NCBI RefSeq assembly: GCF_000764025.1 | Contig: NZ_KN234747.1 | Span: 62,001 to 126,000 of the forward strand | Origin: Pseudohaliea rubra DSM 19751 | GTDB lineage: Bacteria; Pseudomonadota; Gammaproteobacteria; Pseudomonadales; Halieaceae | Direction of reading: 5' to 3' | DNA length: 64,000 nucleotides | Shown: one piece after another, positions 5 through 12,846 of the stretch | Layout: the number at the start of each line of letters is the position of its first letter | Numbering within the stretch: the stretch's first letter is position 1 | The notes under the pieces: generated by a model | What the model was told of the DNA's origin: nothing | Databases searched by the model: none | What the model saw: only the letters and a program-made list of their open reading frames with translations | Position numbers and translations under genes: made by a program

Positions 5-1888
5 ATGATCGCCGCCGATATGGTGGATTTCGTGCGCAGCGACCTTGTGGTTTTCGGCACCGCGATCATCGTGGTGATGTTGTTTGTGCTGGCCGCGGTA
101 TTCCGCCGGGTCCGCTGGACCTTGATACCGCTTCTGACCTGTAGCGTCACGGTGACCCTGATGCTCGGTCTGTTGGCCGCGCTGGACTGGCGCCTGACGG
201 TGATCTCGTCGAATTTTGTGGCGGTCCTCCTGATTATTACCCTCGCGATCGCCATTCACCTGGTGGTGCGCTACCGGGAGCTGCACGCCCTCAACCCCGA
301 GGGCGATCGGCGCCAGCGCGTTTGCGACACGGTGCGCTTGATGTTTGTACCCTGTGCCTACACCGCCATGACCACCATGGTTGCCTTTGTCTCCCTTGTG
401 GTCTCGGATATCCAGCCGGTGATCGACTTCGGCTGGATGATGACCCTCGGTATCGCCGTGGCCTTCCTGGTCTGCTTCACGCTGCTGCCCGCACTGATTC
501 TGCTCTGGCCCAAGGGCCGCCCGGTGCGCCATACCGGCGCCGACGCACCGCTGACACTGCACTTCGCCCGCTTTGCCGACCGGCACGGGCGCCCGGTCCT
601 CTGGGCCAGCGCCGCGCTGATCCTGGTCGTGGTGGCCGGCGTCTCGCAGCTGCGGGTGGAGAACCGCTTCATCGATTACTTCAAGGACACCACCGAGATC
701 TATCAGGGCATGGAGCTACTCGATTCGCGCCTCGGGGGCACCATTCCCCTGGACATCGTGCTCTCGGCACCGGACACGACGGCGCCGCTGCCGGGACTTG
801 CGCAGACCGGCGTTGGCGGCGGGGAGCCGCTGCAGGCTGATGATCCCTTCGCAGAGGATGCAGCGGGCTTTGCGGACCCGGAGCCGGCTGCTCCAGCGGC
901 TGCCGATGATCCTTTCGCCGGCGATGACCCCTTTGCGGCCGACGATCCCTTCGCCGCCGGGAGCGACCCCTTTGCCGGCAGCAGCGACAGCTTCGAGCCC
1001 AGCTACTGGTTCAGTCTTGAGGGCATGCGGACCATCGACGCCGCGCATGCGCTTGTGGCATCCCGGGAGGAAGCAGGCAAGGTACTGTCTCTGGCCACGA
1101 CCTTCAGCGTTGTGCGCAAGCTTCTCGGTGAGGACATCGGTAGTGTGGAGCTCGCCCTGATGCAGCGGAGTCTGCCGGACGACGTTGCCGGGCAGCTGGT
1201 CGCCCCCTATTTCAATGCGCAGCAGGAGGAGGCGCGCATAACGGTGCGGGTCAAGGAAACCAGCGAGACGCTGCGGCGGGACGAACTGCTCCGGGAGCTG
1301 TCGGCGGCGCTGGCTGATCTTCCCGCGCTTTCTGCCGAAGAAGTCCGTCTCACCGGCATGCTTGTGCTATACAACAATGTACTGCAGAGCCTATTCCGCT
1401 CCCAGATTCTCACCCTCGGCGTGGTTTTCCTGGCTATTCTCGCTATGTTCTGGGTGCTGTTCCGCTCTTTCTCCCTGGCCATGGTGGCCCTGGCGCCGAA
1501 TCTCCTCGCTGCAACGCTGGTCCTTGGCATCATGGGCCTTGCCGGTATTCCGCTGGACATCATGACCATTACCATCGCGGCGATCGTCGTGGGTATCGGC
1601 GTGGATGACTGCGTGCACTATGTGTATCGCTTCCGGGAGGAATTTCAGGTGGACCGGGACTACCTTGCCGCCATGTATCGCAGCCACAGTAGCATCGGCC
1701 GGGCCATGTACTACACGACGATCACGATCGTTATCGGGTTTTCCATGCTCACGCTGTCGAATTTCACCCCCAGCATCTACTTCGGGCTGCTGACGGTGCT
1801 TGCGATGACTGCGGCGGTGCTCGGTGCGCTGCTGCTCCTGCCGCGGCTTATCATCCTTTTTCGGCCGCTGGGACCGGAGGGCGCGTGA
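5..1888 (+). CDS. RND/MMPL-family exporter, C-terminal part (5' end probably outside window)
   Basis: Inner-membrane transporter of the RND superfamily (MMPL/SSD-like branch), probably moving lipids or hydrophobic compounds; substrate unknown. At least 627 residues are visible. A first block of membrane helices (about residues 15-170) is followed by a periplasmic domain (about 215-455) and a second block of helices (about 460-620) containing the acidic TM motif GIGVDDCVHYVYRF typical of this family. Complete relatives have a periplasmic loop ahead of the first helix block, and the frame is open to the window edge, so the Met at base 5 is probably internal. A low-complexity insert with five DPFA units lies at residues 279-326. 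The stop overlaps the next gene, so the three genes to 2738 look co-transcribed. Confidence 0.85.
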   Translation: MIAADMVDFVRSDLVVFGTAIIVVMLFVLAAVFRRVRWTLIPLLTCSVTVTLMLGLLAALDWRLTVISSNFVAVLLIITLAIAIHLVVRYRELHALNPEGDRRQRVCDTVRLMFVPCAYTAMTTMVAFVSLVVSDIQPVIDFGWMMTLGIAVAFLVCFTLLPALILLWPKGRPVRHTGADAPLTLHFARFADRHGRPVLWASAALILVVVAGVSQLRVENRFIDYFKDTTEIYQGMELLDSRLGGTIPLDIVLSAPDTTAPLPGLAQTGVGGGEPLQADDPFAEDAAGFADPEPAAPAAADDPFAGDDPFAADDPFAAGSDPFAGSSDSFEPSYWFSLEGMRTIDAAHALVASREEAGKVLSLATTFSVVRKLLGEDIGSVELALMQRSLPDDVAGQLVAPYFNAQQEEARITVRVKETSETLRRDELLRELSAALADLPALSAEEVRLTGMLVLYNNVLQSLFRSQILTLGVVFLAILAMFWVLFRSFSLAMVALAPNLLAATLVLGIMGLAGIPLDIMTITIAAIVVGIGVDDCVHYVYRFREEFQVDRDYLAAMYRSHSSIGRAMYYTTITIVIGFSMLTLSNFTPSIYFGLLTVLAMTAAVLGALLLLPRLIILFRPLGPEGA

Positions 1889-7296: not shown

Positions 7297-9153
7297 CTAG
7301 CCGCCCGGCGGCGCCTCACCGTCACCACTACCCGGCCCCTGGCCCGGATTCTCCCCCGGACCGCCGGGTGTGCCGCCGCCGTTCCCGGGCACCTCGCCGC
7401 CGCTTCCGGGGTTGTCGCCGGGGTTGCCGGGGATGTCGCCATCCTTGCCCGGATTTTTCGCTGCCGCAGGCGCGCTTGGCCCGGTACCGTTCAGGAAGCG
7501 CCCGTCCAGCTCGAAGAACAGCCGGGTGCCATCCACGAGCACGACTTCGTAGCCTTCTTCGCCGAGCCAGGCGCCCGCAGTAGCCCTGCCGGGAGCCTCG
7601 GCGGCCACCGCAGAGGCGACCGCGGCGGGTAGGGCCCTGTCGCCGGTCGCGGGCAGAGCCTGATCATCGCGGAAGGCAAGTTCGCCATCCAGCGCAAGGG
7701 GGAATTGGAAGGCCACCCGCTCGGCGCGGCCGTCGCCGTCGTCGTCGACGGTGCGCACCAGGGCGCCGACGCTGAGGTTGTCAAAGAACGCAGCGGCATC
7801 GATATCCGTAGCTACCGCGCTCTGGAAGCGGGCGCCATCGACGGCCACCGTAATTCCGAGGAGCGTTATCGTTGCCGGTGCCGTGAAGGCTTCTACCGGC
7901 GCTTGCAGCACCCGCGCCGGCGTTTCGGCACCGCGGTCGATACGCGTTGCCAGCAGGCTTCCGTTGCTGCGGAGCGCCTCCACTGCCACCTGGTCACCGC
8001 TGCGAAGGTCGGCAAGGGTCGGGAACGGCAGATCGTTCTGCCGGTCCTCGATAAGGGTCCTTCGATCCGTACTCAGCGTTACCACGGCGTTGGGCAGCTG
8101 CAGCGCCAGGGTACCGGCGTCGCTGTCGATGGCGTTGACGGCGCCGGCGAGGCGCAGCGTGCCCCGTCGCGCGGTGAGCGTCTGGGCGGCCAGGGCCTCA
8201 CCGTTCCAGCGGCCGGCGGCTTCCACGACAGCGCCGTCTTCGATGAGCAGCTCCGGCGGCAGGCGCTCGGCGTCGCCGGGCAGGACCGGGATACCGTTCA
8301 GCAGGAAGGTTCCGTCGCCCAGGCCGGCCACCCGGCCCTCCAGGCGCAGTGCCGCTCCTTCGCTGAGATCGTCGGCCGGCGTGCCTATGGCGCTGACCCG
8401 TGCTGCCCTCAGCACGCCGTCGCTGAGGCTGCCGCGAACCTGCACGCGCCGGCCGTCAGCCAGGCCCTCCGGCAGGCCTTCGAACATCGCCCCGGCCGCG
8501 TTTACGGGCTGCTCACCGAGGAGGAAGGTTGCGCCGTCGACCAGCGTGGCGGTGCCGGTAAGGATCGCTGTATCGGAGTCCGTCACAGCGCTCACGCGCG
8601 TGCCCCGCAGCCGCCCGTCGGCACCGGGCAGGCCATCGATGGCAACCTGCATGCCAGCTGTCAGGGCGGCGAAGTCCGTGCCCTCGAAGACGGTGCCATC
8701 CCGTTCCACAATTACCGCCGTGCCAAAGACACGCAGCTGCAGGCTCCTGTCGTTGCTGCCGCGTTCGAGGCTCGCCACGGGACCGCGCAAAGCGGTGCGT
8801 GCCGTCACCCGGTCCGCGCTGCCGTCGCCGTCGTCATCGCCAATACTGCCGCTCACGGACACGATCATGCCCAGGGTGAGCGCCGCTTCGCTCGCCGGCT
8901 CGCCGTCCACAGTGATTGTGGCCTGGTCGATGGCGAAGCGCTGGCCATTGACGAAAATGGAGCCGGAACCGGTGATCGTCCCGCTGGTGGATATCCCGCT
9001 GCCGCCGATGCCACCGCTGCTCCCCGGCGGTACCGGGTCAACGGCAGCCAGGCGGTCGCCATCACCGCCACCACCACCACCGCAGGCGGTGAGCAGGGTC
9101 ACAAGCGTCAGCAGGCAGGCTGCCGGGGCCGGTCGGGAGCGATGGCGGCTCAT
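7297..9153 (-). CDS. DUF5666 repeat lipoprotein (module copy 1)
   Basis: A 618-residue predicted lipoprotein: the signal sequence ends in the lipobox LLTAC (Cys24), followed by a Gly run. The mature part is a series of about six beta-rich units of roughly 60-75 residues (DUF5666-like), several ending in LLATRIDR- or LRGTRVS-type strands. Two DxDxDG segments (near residues 105-112 and 465-472) resemble calcium-binding loops. The last 50 or so residues are Gly/Pro/Asn/Asp-rich without hydrophobics. The ATG overlaps the stop of the DUF6502 gene upstream (ATGA, 9150-9153). Paralogue of the gene at 10056-11963. Function unknown; a surface-exposed structural or binding role is an inference. Confidence 0.8.
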   Translation of the reverse strand: MSRHRSRPAPAACLLTLVTLLTACGGGGGGDGDRLAAVDPVPPGSSGGIGGSGISTSGTITGSGSIFVNGQRFAIDQATITVDGEPASEAALTLGMIVSVSGSIGDDDGDGSADRVTARTALRGPVASLERGSNDRSLQLRVFGTAVIVERDGTVFEGTDFAALTAGMQVAIDGLPGADGRLRGTRVSAVTDSDTAILTGTATLVDGATFLLGEQPVNAAGAMFEGLPEGLADGRRVQVRGSLSDGVLRAARVSAIGTPADDLSEGAALRLEGRVAGLGDGTFLLNGIPVLPGDAERLPPELLIEDGAVVEAAGRWNGEALAAQTLTARRGTLRLAGAVNAIDSDAGTLALQLPNAVVTLSTDRRTLIEDRQNDLPFPTLADLRSGDQVAVEALRSNGSLLATRIDRGAETPARVLQAPVEAFTAPATITLLGITVAVDGARFQSAVATDIDAAAFFDNLSVGALVRTVDDDGDGRAERVAFQFPLALDGELAFRDDQALPATGDRALPAAVASAVAAEAPGRATAGAWLGEEGYEVVLVDGTRLFFELDGRFLNGTGPSAPAAAKNPGKDGDIPGNPGDNPGSGGEVPGNGGGTPGGPGENPGQGPGSGDGEAPPGG

Positions 9154-9968
9154 GGGGGTGACTCCCCGTCGAAAGAATCATCGTAGTAGTACACACCGAT
9201 GGCGACGTATCGTGCCACTGCATCCGGGTCCGCCGGGTCTATCTCGTGTTCCGTGAGCCAGTGGTGGTAGCGCTCCAGCAGTGCCTGGGACTGGGCGTTG
9301 GAAAAATGGCGAAACGCCGGGATCGAGGCCGCGTTGACGTTGGGGTTCGAGACCTTGCGCTGAAATACGCGGGCATCCCGCGGTGAAGCGAAGTTGTGGC
9401 CGATGGTGGCGACGAATTCCCCGCTGTCGGCGCCGAGCAGGGCGAGGTGCTCGGCCGGTGTGTCGGCGGGGATATAGGCCCGCTCCAGAAGTCGTACCCG
9501 ACCGTCAGCCACGGTGACGGTATTGCTGGTTTCCAGGATAGCGAGCATGGCCACCGTGGGAATGTCGCCACTGTAGTCCTTCACCAGGGTGGCGAAGCTG
9601 TCCTCCCCCTCGATGGGCAGCTCCGCCGGGCTGCCGTCGTGATGCCGGAAACGGTCATCGCCGGTCCAGCCGCTGACCACGCGGATTGCGCGGTTGTAGC
9701 GCAGGTCGCGTTCGCCGTCGTCGTCGATGACTTCGTCGCGGATGCGCTTGGTTTCCTTGCGGGTGAGACCCGTAAGGGCGGACACGGAGGAGATTGTGGG
9801 GCGCTTGCCTCTTGCTGCAACCTGACGGTAGGCCTCGTCCACCCAGGCTTTGCGCGCCAGCTCCATGAAGCTGCCCCAAGCCATGCCGTGCTGCATGAGT
9901 ACGCGCGATAGCGGACGCAGCAGACGATAGACTGCGTGACGAAGTATCTTTTGGGTAGCATTGCCCAC
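9150..9968 (-). CDS. DUF6502 family protein (module copy 1)
   Basis: A 272-residue protein with no signal peptide or membrane segment. It begins ILRHAVYRLLRPLSRVLMQHGMAWG and contains PTISSVSALTGLTRKETKRI (about residues 58-77), which looks like a helix-turn-helix, so a DNA-binding regulator is plausible but unproven. RVVSGW, LVKDYSGDIP and VFQRKVSN blocks are shared with its paralogue at 11960-12775. It is translationally coupled by a 4-base overlap to the lipoprotein gene downstream. Likely a member of family DUF6502, whose function is not known. Confidence 0.8.
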   Translation of the reverse strand: MGNATQKILRHAVYRLLRPLSRVLMQHGMAWGSFMELARKAWVDEAYRQVAARGKRPTISSVSALTGLTRKETKRIRDEVIDDDGERDLRYNRAIRVVSGWTGDDRFRHHDGSPAELPIEGEDSFATLVKDYSGDIPTVAMLAILETSNTVTVADGRVRLLERAYIPADTPAEHLALLGADSGEFVATIGHNFASPRDARVFQRKVSNPNVNAASIPAFRHFSNAQSQALLERYHHWLTEHEIDPADPDAVARYVAIGVYYYDDSFDGESPP

Positions 9969-10055
9969 AGCGACAACTTAGCCTGAGCGGGTAAAGAAGA
10001 AAAGGAACCGCATCACAGAATGCAGCCCGCGTCGCAGACTGCTTCGTTTAGTTGA

Positions 10056-11963
10056 TCAGTCTTCTGAGGCGTCTTCTTCCTCGCTCTCCTCCTCTACTTC
10101 GTTCTCCTCTACTTCGTCCTCCTCTGCTTCGTCCTCCTCTGCTTCGTCCGCGGCGCCGTCGTCATCTGCGCTGTCGTCGTCGGCATCGTCCGCATCGTCG
10201 TCATCGGCGCCGTCCTCGTCAATACCGTTATCATCCGCGCTGTCGTCGTCATCTTCGTTGCTGTCGATGTCGGCCTCGAGGAGGTTGCCGGCGAGATCGA
10301 AGGTCAACTCGATCCCGCTCACCAGTACCACCTCGTACTCGTCTTCGTCGCGGTAGGCGATGGCGATATCCCTGCCGGGGAAATTGGTCGCGATGCTGTC
10401 GAGAATGACCTGGGGCAGCTCAGCACCGGTGATCGGCTCATCATCATCGTCACGGAAATCCCGGTCGCCGTCGAGGACAGCTGCGAACTCGAACTCGACC
10501 TCGTCGGCGGTGCCGTCGTTGTTGTCGTCTTCGACCTTCACCAGGGCGCCGGGCTCAAGGTTTGCGTAGAAGGCCGCCGCGCCGATGTCGTCGTCGACTG
10601 CGTTCTCGAAGGCTGCACCGGTGGTGCTGAAGGTCACGCCCAGCAGGGTCAGGCTGCTGCCATTCATGAAGGCTTCTACCGGCGCCTGCAGCAGGCGCTC
10701 GACGTCGTCTTCGTCCCGGTCAATGCGGGTGGCGAGGAGCCGGGCGCCGTCCTGCACAGCCTCGGCCTCAAGATAGTCGCCGCTGCGCAGATCCTGGATC
10801 GTGAGAAATGGCAGGCCGTCCCGGTCATCATCGAACAACGTGCGGTTGTCCGTTGCCAGCTCGATGCTGCCGCCGGCGTAGCCCAGAGTGACGATACCTG
10901 TCGCGACATCGACGGCCGTCGCCGGTGCCTCCAGCTTGATGCGGCCGCGCCGGGCCTGCACGCGGCTGGCTACCAGTACGCTGCCGTCCCAGCTGCCGTC
11001 GACCTCGACAATGGCGCCGTTGCGGAGCGCGAGATCTGTGGGCTCCCGTACGGCGCTGGTAGCGTCGACGGGGACCCCGGCGACACTGAAGCTTGCATCG
11101 TCGAGGTAACCGGCCACGGCGCCTTCGACACGCGCGGCCTCGCCGGCCGTGAACCTTCCTCCGGGGCCGTCGTCGCGGCTGATGCGCTCAGCAACCAGCG
11201 TGCCGTCCTGCAGCGTGCCGCGTACTTCGACCCGCTGGCCGTCGGCAAGGGCGTCTTCCGGCAGGTTCTGGAGTGTTGCGTTGGCCGCGTCCACGGTGCG
11301 GTCACCGAGAAGGAAGGAGGTGCCGGCAAGGCCCGTCACCACTCCCTTCACAGAGACACTGCTCTGGCCCGGGAGGAAGTCGTCATCGCGATCGATGCGG
11401 GTTGCCCGGAGGCGCCCGTCTGCCGCCTCGTAGCCGGAGACCTCGACCACATCGCCGACGGCCAGGGTGGTGAAAGACACCCCGGCGAAGACCGTGCCGG
11501 TGCGTTCGGCAAGAACCCGGCGCCCCAGGATCGTCAGCTGCAGCGTGGTGCCGTCGGCGTTGAGCTCGAGGCTGTCGATGGGGCCCTTGAGCTCCGCCGC
11601 GAAGGTCACCCGCTCCGCGCTGCCGTTGGCGCCATCGTCGTCCACCGTGCCGGTCACCGTGACTACCATGCCGAGGCCGAGCTCAGCCTCGCTAGCGCTT
11701 TCACCGTTTACGGTGATTTCGGCCTCGTCGACCTCGAACCGCACGCCATTGACGAAGATGCTGCCGGTACCGTTGATGGTTCCGCTGCTGGTCAGGCCGG
11801 TGCCGCCGATGCCGCCGCCGCCGTCACCGGAGGGAGGCGGCGCGGCAGCCGCAAGGTCGCCGCCACCACCGCCGCCACCGCCACCGCCACCGCCACCGCC
11901 GCAGGCTACAATAAGGGCGAGGATAGTGGCACAGGCGGCCAGGCGCAGGGGGGCGGGGATCAT
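10056..11963 (-). CDS. DUF5666 repeat lipoprotein with acidic tail (module copy 2)
   Basis: A 635-residue predicted lipoprotein (lipobox ending in Cys21 of LIVAC, then 13 Gly). The repeat region aligns along most of its length with the copy at 7297-9153, including the shared N-terminal block GTGSIFVNG and unit ends such as LLATRIDRD. Asp-rich loops DDNNDGTADEVEF and similar resemble calcium sites. The C-terminal 70 or so residues are almost entirely Asp, Glu, Ala and Ser, quite unlike the Gly/Pro tail of copy 1. The ATG overlaps the stop of the DUF6502 gene (11960-11963). Exported; function unknown. Confidence 0.8.
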   Translation of the reverse strand: MIPAPLRLAACATILALIVACGGGGGGGGGGGGGGDLAAAAPPPSGDGGGGIGGTGLTSSGTINGTGSIFVNGVRFEVDEAEITVNGESASEAELGLGMVVTVTGTVDDDGANGSAERVTFAAELKGPIDSLELNADGTTLQLTILGRRVLAERTGTVFAGVSFTTLAVGDVVEVSGYEAADGRLRATRIDRDDDFLPGQSSVSVKGVVTGLAGTSFLLGDRTVDAANATLQNLPEDALADGQRVEVRGTLQDGTLVAERISRDDGPGGRFTAGEAARVEGAVAGYLDDASFSVAGVPVDATSAVREPTDLALRNGAIVEVDGSWDGSVLVASRVQARRGRIKLEAPATAVDVATGIVTLGYAGGSIELATDNRTLFDDDRDGLPFLTIQDLRSGDYLEAEAVQDGARLLATRIDRDEDDVERLLQAPVEAFMNGSSLTLLGVTFSTTGAAFENAVDDDIGAAAFYANLEPGALVKVEDDNNDGTADEVEFEFAAVLDGDRDFRDDDDEPITGAELPQVILDSIATNFPGRDIAIAYRDEDEYEVVLVSGIELTFDLAGNLLEADIDSNEDDDDSADDNGIDEDGADDDDADDADDDSADDDGAADEAEEDEAEEDEVEENEVEEESEEEDASED

Positions 11964-12775
11964 GATGCCGGTTCCTCGTCGATCTCGTCGTCATAATAAT
12001 AGATGCCGACAGCGACGTAGCGTGCGCGCTCGTCCTCGTCGGGGTCTACCTGGTGCTCGGAAAGCCATCGATGATACGTCTCGAGCAGGGCCTGGGATTG
12101 TTCGGTGGACAGGGCCCGGAAGGCCGGCAGGGCGCTCGCCCGGACGCTACTGTTGGAGACCTTGCGCTGGAACACGCGGCGCCCTTTCTCGCTGTTGATG
12201 TTGTGCCCAATGGTGCCGACGAGCTCGCCGACGTCCTTGCCGAGGATCTCGATATGTTCTACCGGTGTCTGCGTTGGCAGGTAGGCGCGCTCTCGCAGGA
12301 GCACGTGATCGTCCGCCAGCGTCGCCGTATTGCTGGCCTCGAGAATCGTCAGCATGGCGCTCGGGGGGATGTCGCCGCTGTAGTCCTTCACCAGCAGGGC
12401 GAAGCTGCGTGGACCTTCCAGGGGCAGGGCCGCCGGCTCGCCGCGGTCGTCGTGGAAGCGTGGATCCACCAGCCAGCCGCTGACGACGCGGATCGCCCGG
12501 TTGTAGCGGTGGGTCCGGTCGCTGTCGGCTTCCAGGTCGAGGTCATGGACCCGCCTGGCCTCTTTCCGGGTCAGCCCGGTCAGGGCGGACACGGCGGAGA
12601 TGCTCGGACGCTTGCCGAGGGCCTTCAGATGACGCAGCCCCTCGTCTGTGTAAGCCTTGCGCGCGAGTTCGGCAAAGGTGCCATAGGCCATACCGTGCCG
12701 CAGCAGTATGCGCACCAGGGGGCGTAGCAGCCGGTAGACGGCGTGACGAAGGGCGCTGGTGAGGGCGTCTGACAT
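11960..12775 (-). CDS. DUF6502 family protein (module copy 2)
   Basis: A 271-residue cytoplasmic protein, paralogous to 9150-9968 over its whole length (by eye well over half of positions agree). PSISAVSALTGLTRKEARRVHD (about residues 57-77) is a probable helix-turn-helix. First gene of the four-gene run of two modules; its start is divergent from the peroxiredoxin gene, and a 19-base near-palindrome lies in the gap at 12828-12846. Regulation of its lipoprotein partner is a reasonable but untested guess. Confidence 0.8.
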   Translation of the reverse strand: MSDALTSALRHAVYRLLRPLVRILLRHGMAYGTFAELARKAYTDEGLRHLKALGKRPSISAVSALTGLTRKEARRVHDLDLEADSDRTHRYNRAIRVVSGWLVDPRFHDDRGEPAALPLEGPRSFALLVKDYSGDIPPSAMLTILEASNTATLADDHVLLRERAYLPTQTPVEHIEILGKDVGELVGTIGHNINSEKGRRVFQRKVSNSSVRASALPAFRALSTEQSQALLETYHRWLSEHQVDPDEDERARYVAVGIYYYDDEIDEEPAS

Positions 12776-12827
12776 GTTGGGAATTTAATCCCAGCTGTGA
12801 CCGGCGTCAAGGTATGCAGCGCTTGTG

Positions 12828-12846
12828 ATCGATCGCTCCGATCAAT
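12828..12846. promoter_or_regulatory. near-perfect palindrome, possible operator
   Basis: ATCGATCG-CTC-CGATCAAT: eight-base arms that pair at seven positions, lying between the divergent DUF6502 gene (start 12775) and the peroxiredoxin gene (start 12968). The symmetry suggests a dimeric regulator, but I do not recognise the motif and it does not have the ATAG/CTAT spacing of an OxyR site. Confidence 0.35.

Follow-up and report, generated by a model that had tools for sequence, protein, structure and literature searches.

The window analysed here, a stretch of 64,000 nucleotides from Pseudohaliea rubra DSM 19751 (contig NZ_KN234747.1, positions 62,001 to 126,000), carries on its minus strand four consecutive genes in the order DUF6502, DUF5666, DUF6502, DUF5666 (Table 1). 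All four match their Pfam families far above the curated cut-off of 27 bits that applies to both: DUF6502 a and b match PF20112 with E-values of 1.1e-51 and 5.7e-46 (175.7 and 157 bits), DUF5666 a matches PF18914 in six stretches (E 3.6e-43, 146.1 bits) and DUF5666 b in four (E 7.5e-33, 113.1 bits). Coordinates and Pfam matches thus confirm the initial annotation, which had described two DUF6502–DUF5666 pairs in tandem, each with an ATGA overlap at its junction and separated by 87 bases. The copies are paralogous, as had been proposed, with 62% identity between the DUF6502 and 46% between the DUF5666 proteins. The concern that the second copy might be a recent assembly artefact did not apply: given this low identity and the presence of such a tandem block, flanks included, on a Halieaceae contig from a metagenome-assembled genome (L228; about 75% DNA identity over 5.4 kb), the duplication is genuine and old. 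The tandem is a local duplication of a unit that consists, as set out below, of a regulator and a tagged partner. The genome encodes no DUF6502 protein beyond these two, and a single unlinked DUF5666 gene is located on contig C52.

Table 1. Features of the DUF6502/DUF5666 locus, in window positions (parts of DUF6502 a in residue numbers).
Feature	Position	Strand	Remarks
Second inverted repeat TGATCG-N7-CGATCA	12826..12844	minus	Upstream of promoter; arms kept in L228, spacer differs
-35 box TTGACG	12805..12810	minus	17 bases before -10; read in the sequence; family logo has TTGAC at the same offset
Palindromic putative operator CTGGGATTAAATTCCCAA	12777..12794	minus	Core GGG-N8-CCC at 12779-12792; ATG 3 bases on
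-10 box TAAATT	12782-12787	minus	Inside palindrome
Operator-bearing sequence TTGGGAATATATTCCCAA			Candidate DUF6502 target with palindrome half-sites
DUF6502 a	12775-11960	minus	271 aa; Pfam match; predicted HetR-like DNA-binding regulator
Predicted parts of DUF6502 a	residues ~59-77; 125-160; ~165-264; 202-206		Helix-turn-helix; winged helix; hood-like domain; FQRKV
DUF5666 a	11963-10056	minus	635 aa; lipoprotein with DUF5666 repeats and acidic tail
Tag GGIGGTG of DUF5666 a	11796..11816	minus	Shortly after lipobox; putative ligand
Inter-pair gap	9969..10055	minus	87 bases; no operator-type palindrome
DUF6502 b	9968-9150	minus	272 aa; GTG start
DUF5666 b	9153-7297	minus	618 aa; lipoprotein with DUF5666 repeats
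Tag GGIGGSG of DUF5666 b	8995..9015	minus	Shortly after lipobox

Linkage of the two families is not confined to this locus. The co-occurrence check suggested earlier was run on a class-wide sample of 369 genomes, in which DUF6502 is present in 99 and DUF5666 in 94; both are found together in 83 genomes, far more than the 25 expected by chance (Fisher test, 3e-53). From 131 regions around DUF6502 matches 139 DUF6502 open reading frames were obtained, a few of them fragments of one gene, and 90 of the 139 are directly followed by a DUF5666 frame on the same strand; 16 have one directly upstream. A start codon at exactly -4, which creates the ATGA overlap, is possible at 49 of these 90 junctions. 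Two pairs in tandem are rare, the usual multiple form being DUF5666-DUF6502-DUF5666. A third gene shared by the neighbourhoods was rejected, as the next-commonest families occur in no more than 17 loci. The search covered the class to which the window belongs and named genomes (partly overlapping sets of loci, some being from the same genome); the named-genome loci come from Gammaproteobacteria, Nitrospira and other Nitrospirota, Thermodesulfovibrio, one deltaproteobacterial metagenome-assembled genome and Rubrivivax.

What follows DUF6502 is defined by a short peptide and not by the DUF5666 domain. Just behind the signal peptide or lipobox of the downstream partner lies a short glycine-rich tag, GG[I/V]xG[T/S]G, a pattern that was broadened after a first look and was searched for, equally in the test and the control sets, in stop-to-stop open frames that may extend ahead of the true start. 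Among DUF5666 genes it is present in 82 of 89 located directly downstream of DUF6502 (in one, L076, it lies too far inside), whereas none of 16 directly upstream and none of 22 unlinked genes among the matches listed has it, these two sets including a few genes cut at the 5' end (L079, L119, L277). The 20 unlinked places were chosen among the matches listed, three other listed ones (G300, G214, G154) having been left out; one near miss is GGIGGTA in L267, and the unlinked DUF5666 gene of P. rubra also lacks the tag. When the downstream gene does not encode DUF5666, the tag is found at 17 of 40 places, after removal of three spurious matches (L121, L137, L138) from 20; in the control it matches 37 of 2137 other open reading frames of at least 150 residues. 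These numbers indicate that the tag tracks the position behind DUF6502 and not DUF5666, which was rejected as a necessary partner. The linkage claimed in the initial annotation is therefore real, and its definition of the partner was too narrow: any exported protein with an N-terminal GG[I/V]xG[T/S]G tag can take this place. Among the best 80 of 374 named-genome loci, DUF5666 lies behind DUF6502 in 78 of the 80 cases that had sufficient sequence and the tag is present in 75 of 80, rates that are no fair sample because these loci are the ones close to the query.

The tagged partners without DUF5666 are mutually unrelated and comprise proteins with fibronectin and Calx-beta domains, one DUF4397-like protein and nameless families. 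The smallest, with 56 and 60 residues, are lipoproteins that are ATGA-coupled to DUF6502 and show no recognisable feature except the tag; these mini-lipoproteins (L100:6286-6456 and L109:5310-5492) have two or more cysteines and no domain. Several partners contain the tag repeatedly, and it is found in lipoproteins as well as in exported proteins without a lipobox. In 176 genes the third bases of the tag glycine codons are as variable as the background, and serine is encoded by both AGY and TCN. Because the wobble positions are at background level, selection acts on the tag peptide, and a DNA or RNA element was rejected on the same grounds. Two loci differ from this arrangement: behind two DUF6502 genes L151:6426-7019 encodes an exported protein of GISVGD repeats, perhaps a ligand of a different type, and in L085 a thiS-like gene whose product ends in GGG takes the place of the tagged protein.

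Upstream of DUF6502 genes we found a palindrome with the family consensus TTTGGGA-N6-TCCCAAA. Its core, GGG[A/T]N6[A/T]CCC, precedes 106 of 215 DUF6502 genes compared with 66 of 1765 other genes of these loci (Fisher test, 1e-68), and shuffled upstream sequences gave 9.3%. A logo of 97 non-redundant cases displays TTGAC at -18 and TATA-T within the palindrome, i.e. a sigma-70 promoter with a 17-base spacer. A TTGAC-like -35 box occurs at the proper offset in 54 of the 97 (two control offsets gave 1 and 3), and in 72 the ATG follows 3–5 bases after the palindrome; the operon transcript is probably leaderless. The promoter in the window, TTGACG-N17-TAAATT, fits the family logo exactly. An operator upstream of DUF6502 is thus well supported by sequence, and as the palindrome covers the -10 box it offers a place for a repressor. 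Since the 87-base gap between the pairs has no palindrome of this type, both pairs probably form one four-gene operon. We consider it very probable that DUF6502 binds DNA at TTGGGA-N6-TCCCAA; bound over the -10 box of its own operon, it would most likely repress it. The earlier view of DUF6502 as a cytoplasmic helix-turn-helix protein was upheld, and in light of the operator and the conserved pairing it is very probable that the two products cooperate and that DUF6502 has the regulatory role.

The same palindrome is found at genes elsewhere, which may be controlled by DUF6502 in trans. The P. rubra genome contains TTGGGA-N6-TCCCAA with at most one mismatch in four places, and an identical 18-mer occurs twice, before the operon and before the unlinked DUF5666 gene. 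The core palindrome lies upstream of 14 of 20 unlinked DUF5666 genes scored, which were picked among the matches listed and searched over 250 bases, the control with other genes covering only 190. Of the six genes that lack it, one (L269) comes from a genome where the search detected no DUF6502. Another genome of this kind (G186, 81% complete) has in L267 an unlinked DUF5666 lipoprotein with both the palindrome and the near-tag GGIGGTA. The whole genomes of four cultured species contain few exact palindromes, with one each in Haliea salexigens and H. alexandrii, two in Rubrivivax albus and three in Motilimonas pumila, and in each of the four one copy precedes DUF6502. The second of R. albus stands before the unlinked DUF5666 gene of that species; in M. 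pumila the two remaining copies precede paralogues of an exported DUF6929 protein (39% identical; L284:2730-4220 and L285:2926-3915). Strict palindromes also lie roughly 60 bases upstream of genes for exported multiheme c-type cytochromes at two loci that belong to different phyla (L202:2974-5424 and L240:13264-15219). In P. rubra a palindrome with one mismatch that lies 8 bases upstream of a type IV pilin-like gene (G000:C49:14023-14040; L289) is probably due to chance because of the control counts for such sites given below.

The predicted structure of DUF6502 points to HetR. In the AlphaFold model of DUF6502 a (mean predicted local distance difference test score, pLDDT, 87), the first PDB match found by Foldseek is HetR (E 0.10, probability 0.69), and in a fold search with the whole protein HetR occupies ranks 1–3 of 530 chains, aligned end-to-end (Z 7.4, 7.3 and 6.5; root-mean-square deviation, rmsd, 10.4–11.0 Å). 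A model of the C-terminal half of a second member, from L184 (pLDDT 83), again returned HetR first with Foldseek (E 0.22); HetR took places 1, 2, 3 and 5 of 858, with 81 residues of the hood superimposed at 3.5 Å (Z 5.6), and among the matches listed only the HetR rows reach beyond the winged helix. Based on these models it is fairly likely that DUF6502 has a HetR-like fold.

The closest known system is that of HetR with PatS, HetN and PatX, which serves heterocyst and filament patterning in cyanobacteria. HetR is regarded as peculiar to filamentous cyanobacteria, and its hood and flap folds were termed novel (PMC4649674, PMC12756182). According to the former, HetR binds the hetR and patS promoters, its own site is GGGN5CCC, and it is freed from DNA by the peptides RGSGR and RGTGR of PatS and PatX, which pair with strand beta-3 of the hood; PatX (RGTGR) is exported via Sec and cut outside the cytoplasm, which is needed for its action (PMC12756182; PMC7761841). 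Several traits recur in DUF6502: the predicted order of an N-terminal helix-turn-helix, a winged-helix-like middle part and a hood-like C-terminal domain; a palindrome with GGG/CCC half-sites before its own gene (for HetR, PMC4649674); and a G[S/T]G-core motif in an exported protein (for PatX, PMC12756182). By contrast, the half-sites are spaced as GGG-N8-CCC instead of GGG-N5-CCC, no sequence similarity to HetR is detectable, and the tag lacks the two arginines of the PatS and PatX peptides. Unlike in the HetR system, the candidate ligand gene of DUF6502 is located directly downstream and translationally coupled, and the tag is mostly carried by large lipoproteins. Finally, HetR belongs to filamentous cyanobacteria, which were outside our search, and DUF6502 to Proteobacteria and Nitrospirota.

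By its order in the chain, the highly conserved FQRKV segment of DUF6502 corresponds to the hood strand beta-3 of HetR that pairs with PatS6. The motif [QED][RLM]xV is intact in this segment in 163 of 171 tagged and 19 of 32 untagged cases (Fisher test, 3e-7), at least L058, L066, L160 and L259 having been entered as untagged despite a visible tag. In all eight cases with an LQ[LM]S variant of the segment, residue x of the tag is other than glycine. The four residues that precede the tag covary with the hood more than a control segment of the same proteins does (beta-3 segment, p 0.008, 0.0006, 0.08 and 0.13; control never below 0.27); shared ancestry was incompletely removed from this test. 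L132:4435-5538 (minus strand, G368) encodes an exported DUF5666-type protein coupled to DUF6502, at whose end RGSGVR is repeated 18 times in tandem, a unit similar to the pentapeptide RGSGR of PatS; in the accompanying DUF6502 the segment that corresponds to FQRKV reads FERQV. By analogy with HetR we think it fairly probable that the tag is the ligand of DUF6502.

Taken together, we propose that DUF6502 is a HetR-like autoregulator with the tagged exported protein as its cognate ligand. The N-terminal tag of the next-translated gene's product would be bound by the hood-like C-terminal domain of DUF6502 and would alter DNA binding, as RG[S/T]GR of PatS/PatX does with HetR, both at the operon and, in trans, at unlinked genes for exported proteins with the same palindrome. 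The ligand might reach the regulator as unexported precursor, or as a peptide that is cut off outside and then taken up. We regard this explanation as a whole as moderately likely, an estimate that treats the component claims as not independent.

Several observations weigh against it. The strict operator is absent from about half of the DUF6502 genes, and divergent DUF6502 members have neither tag nor partner. In four genomes palindromes with at most one mismatch are no commoner than a reversed control (17 compared with 18), so that the weaker palindromes are not trustworthy. Covariation with the beta-3 segment is limited to the four residues that precede the tag and does not extend to its core. 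No Foldseek E-value is below 0.001, and for predicted monomers Z-scores below 8 at a whole-chain rmsd above 10 Å can arise by chance. At the sequence level kinship with HetR was not found. The HetR families Peptidase_S48 and HetR_C are not among the Pfam matches of DUF6502 at E-values up to 0.1, and hhalign gave a probability of 0.1–0.2% with a HetR profile of two sequences only; this score was matched or beaten by 46 of 100 HetR shuffles and 63 of 150 unrelated proteins. No further HetR sequences for the profile were found in plasmids or viral contigs, and when PDB sequences were searched with the DUF6502 profile, the single hit (E 0.2) was attributable to chance.

In view of the silent sequence profiles and the middling structural scores, the resemblance to HetR may be a matter of convergence or chance, DUF6502 then being an unrelated tandem winged-helix regulator with some other ligand. 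We take this seriously but hold it to be doubtful. Models of two different members both rank HetR first, HetR alone among the C-terminal matches listed passes the winged helix, and both systems have a GGG-N-CCC palindrome (GGGN5CCC for HetR, PMC4649674) together with an exported protein that contains a G[S/T]G peptide.

Another explanation concerns the place at which the tag is read. DUF6502 might sense it on the nascent or stalled precursor before export, in which case the circuit would report export capacity and involve no free peptide. Both the ATGA coupling and the one-to-one pairing favour action near the site of synthesis, and the tag adjoins the signal peptide; the nearest analogue, PatX, acts only after export and cutting (PMC12756182). 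On balance we consider such precursor sensing unlikely.

Lipoprotein N-terminal sorting signals and peptide pheromones derived from lipoprotein signal peptides are familiar examples of short sequences near the lipobox that act separately from the protein. The DUF6502-associated tag differs from them in being tied to the adjacent gene of a cytoplasmic regulator and in occurring also in proteins without a lipobox. It might nevertheless be a signal for export, sorting, anchoring or processing that is read by an envelope machine, with DUF6502 still acting as an autoregulator. Its position immediately after the signal peptide or lipobox is the usual one for a sorting signal, and its repetition in some partners would suit this role as well. 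Such a signal should not be missing from all 22 unlinked DUF5666 lipoproteins and all 16 upstream neighbours, which have similar signal peptides, nor occur in lipoproteins and ordinary exported proteins alike; adjacency to DUF6502 is what decides, for which a general sorting machine would have no need, and no other family is common to the neighbourhoods (the next is present in 17 loci). This renders the sorting-signal explanation rather improbable. The chaperone role mentioned in the initial annotation, i.e. DUF6502 as a dedicated chaperone or maturation factor of the lipoprotein, fits the tight translational coupling and one-to-one pairing, is not supported and is most improbable given the two predicted helix-turn-helix/winged-helix units of DUF6502, the palindrome before its own gene and unlinked genes, and the fact that unlinked DUF5666 proteins of the same genomes do without it.

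Other features of the window proteins are mentioned for completeness. In DUF5666 a (10056-11963, minus strand) an EF-hand-like loop, DDNNDGTADEVE, was spotted by eye; the protein also has a long acidic tail and a PepSY-like match just below threshold (27.1 compared with 28.3 bits), and its only NCBIfam matches were weak, IHF-like ones far below the cut-off. A defence system was rejected, since a PADLOC search with the four proteins returned no match. Phage origin was likewise rejected, viral contigs having given no relative in one single-protein scan.

A circuit of DUF6502 and a tagged partner is apparently widespread in bacteria and undescribed. DUF6502 is named in no paper that we found (preprints being outside the search), and the string GIGGTG occurred in one unrelated paper. 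The Pfam entries PF20112 and PF18914, to which the window pairs belong, are of unknown function and mention neither a tag nor an operator nor a HetR-like fold. The proposed circuit would give a role to both of these families, with a regulator, a promoter, a ligand sequence and targets as testable parts, and some DUF6502 carriers (Haliea, Motilimonas, Rubrivivax) are in culture. The rule that the tag stands only behind the regulator provides a direct route to ligand–receptor pairs. If DUF6502 is HetR-like, bacteria that do not differentiate would possess a regulator that senses peptides and may have thousands of homologues. It is tempting to speculate further, although we think it somewhat unlikely, that HetR-PatX-type signalling operates across Proteobacteria and Nitrospirota, with a tagged ligand precursor for each regulator copy, a peptide that is released at the surface and acts between cells, and a regulon of surface lipoproteins, multiheme cytochromes and other exported proteins. 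If so, heterocyst patterning by HetR would be one offshoot of an older and general bacterial device.

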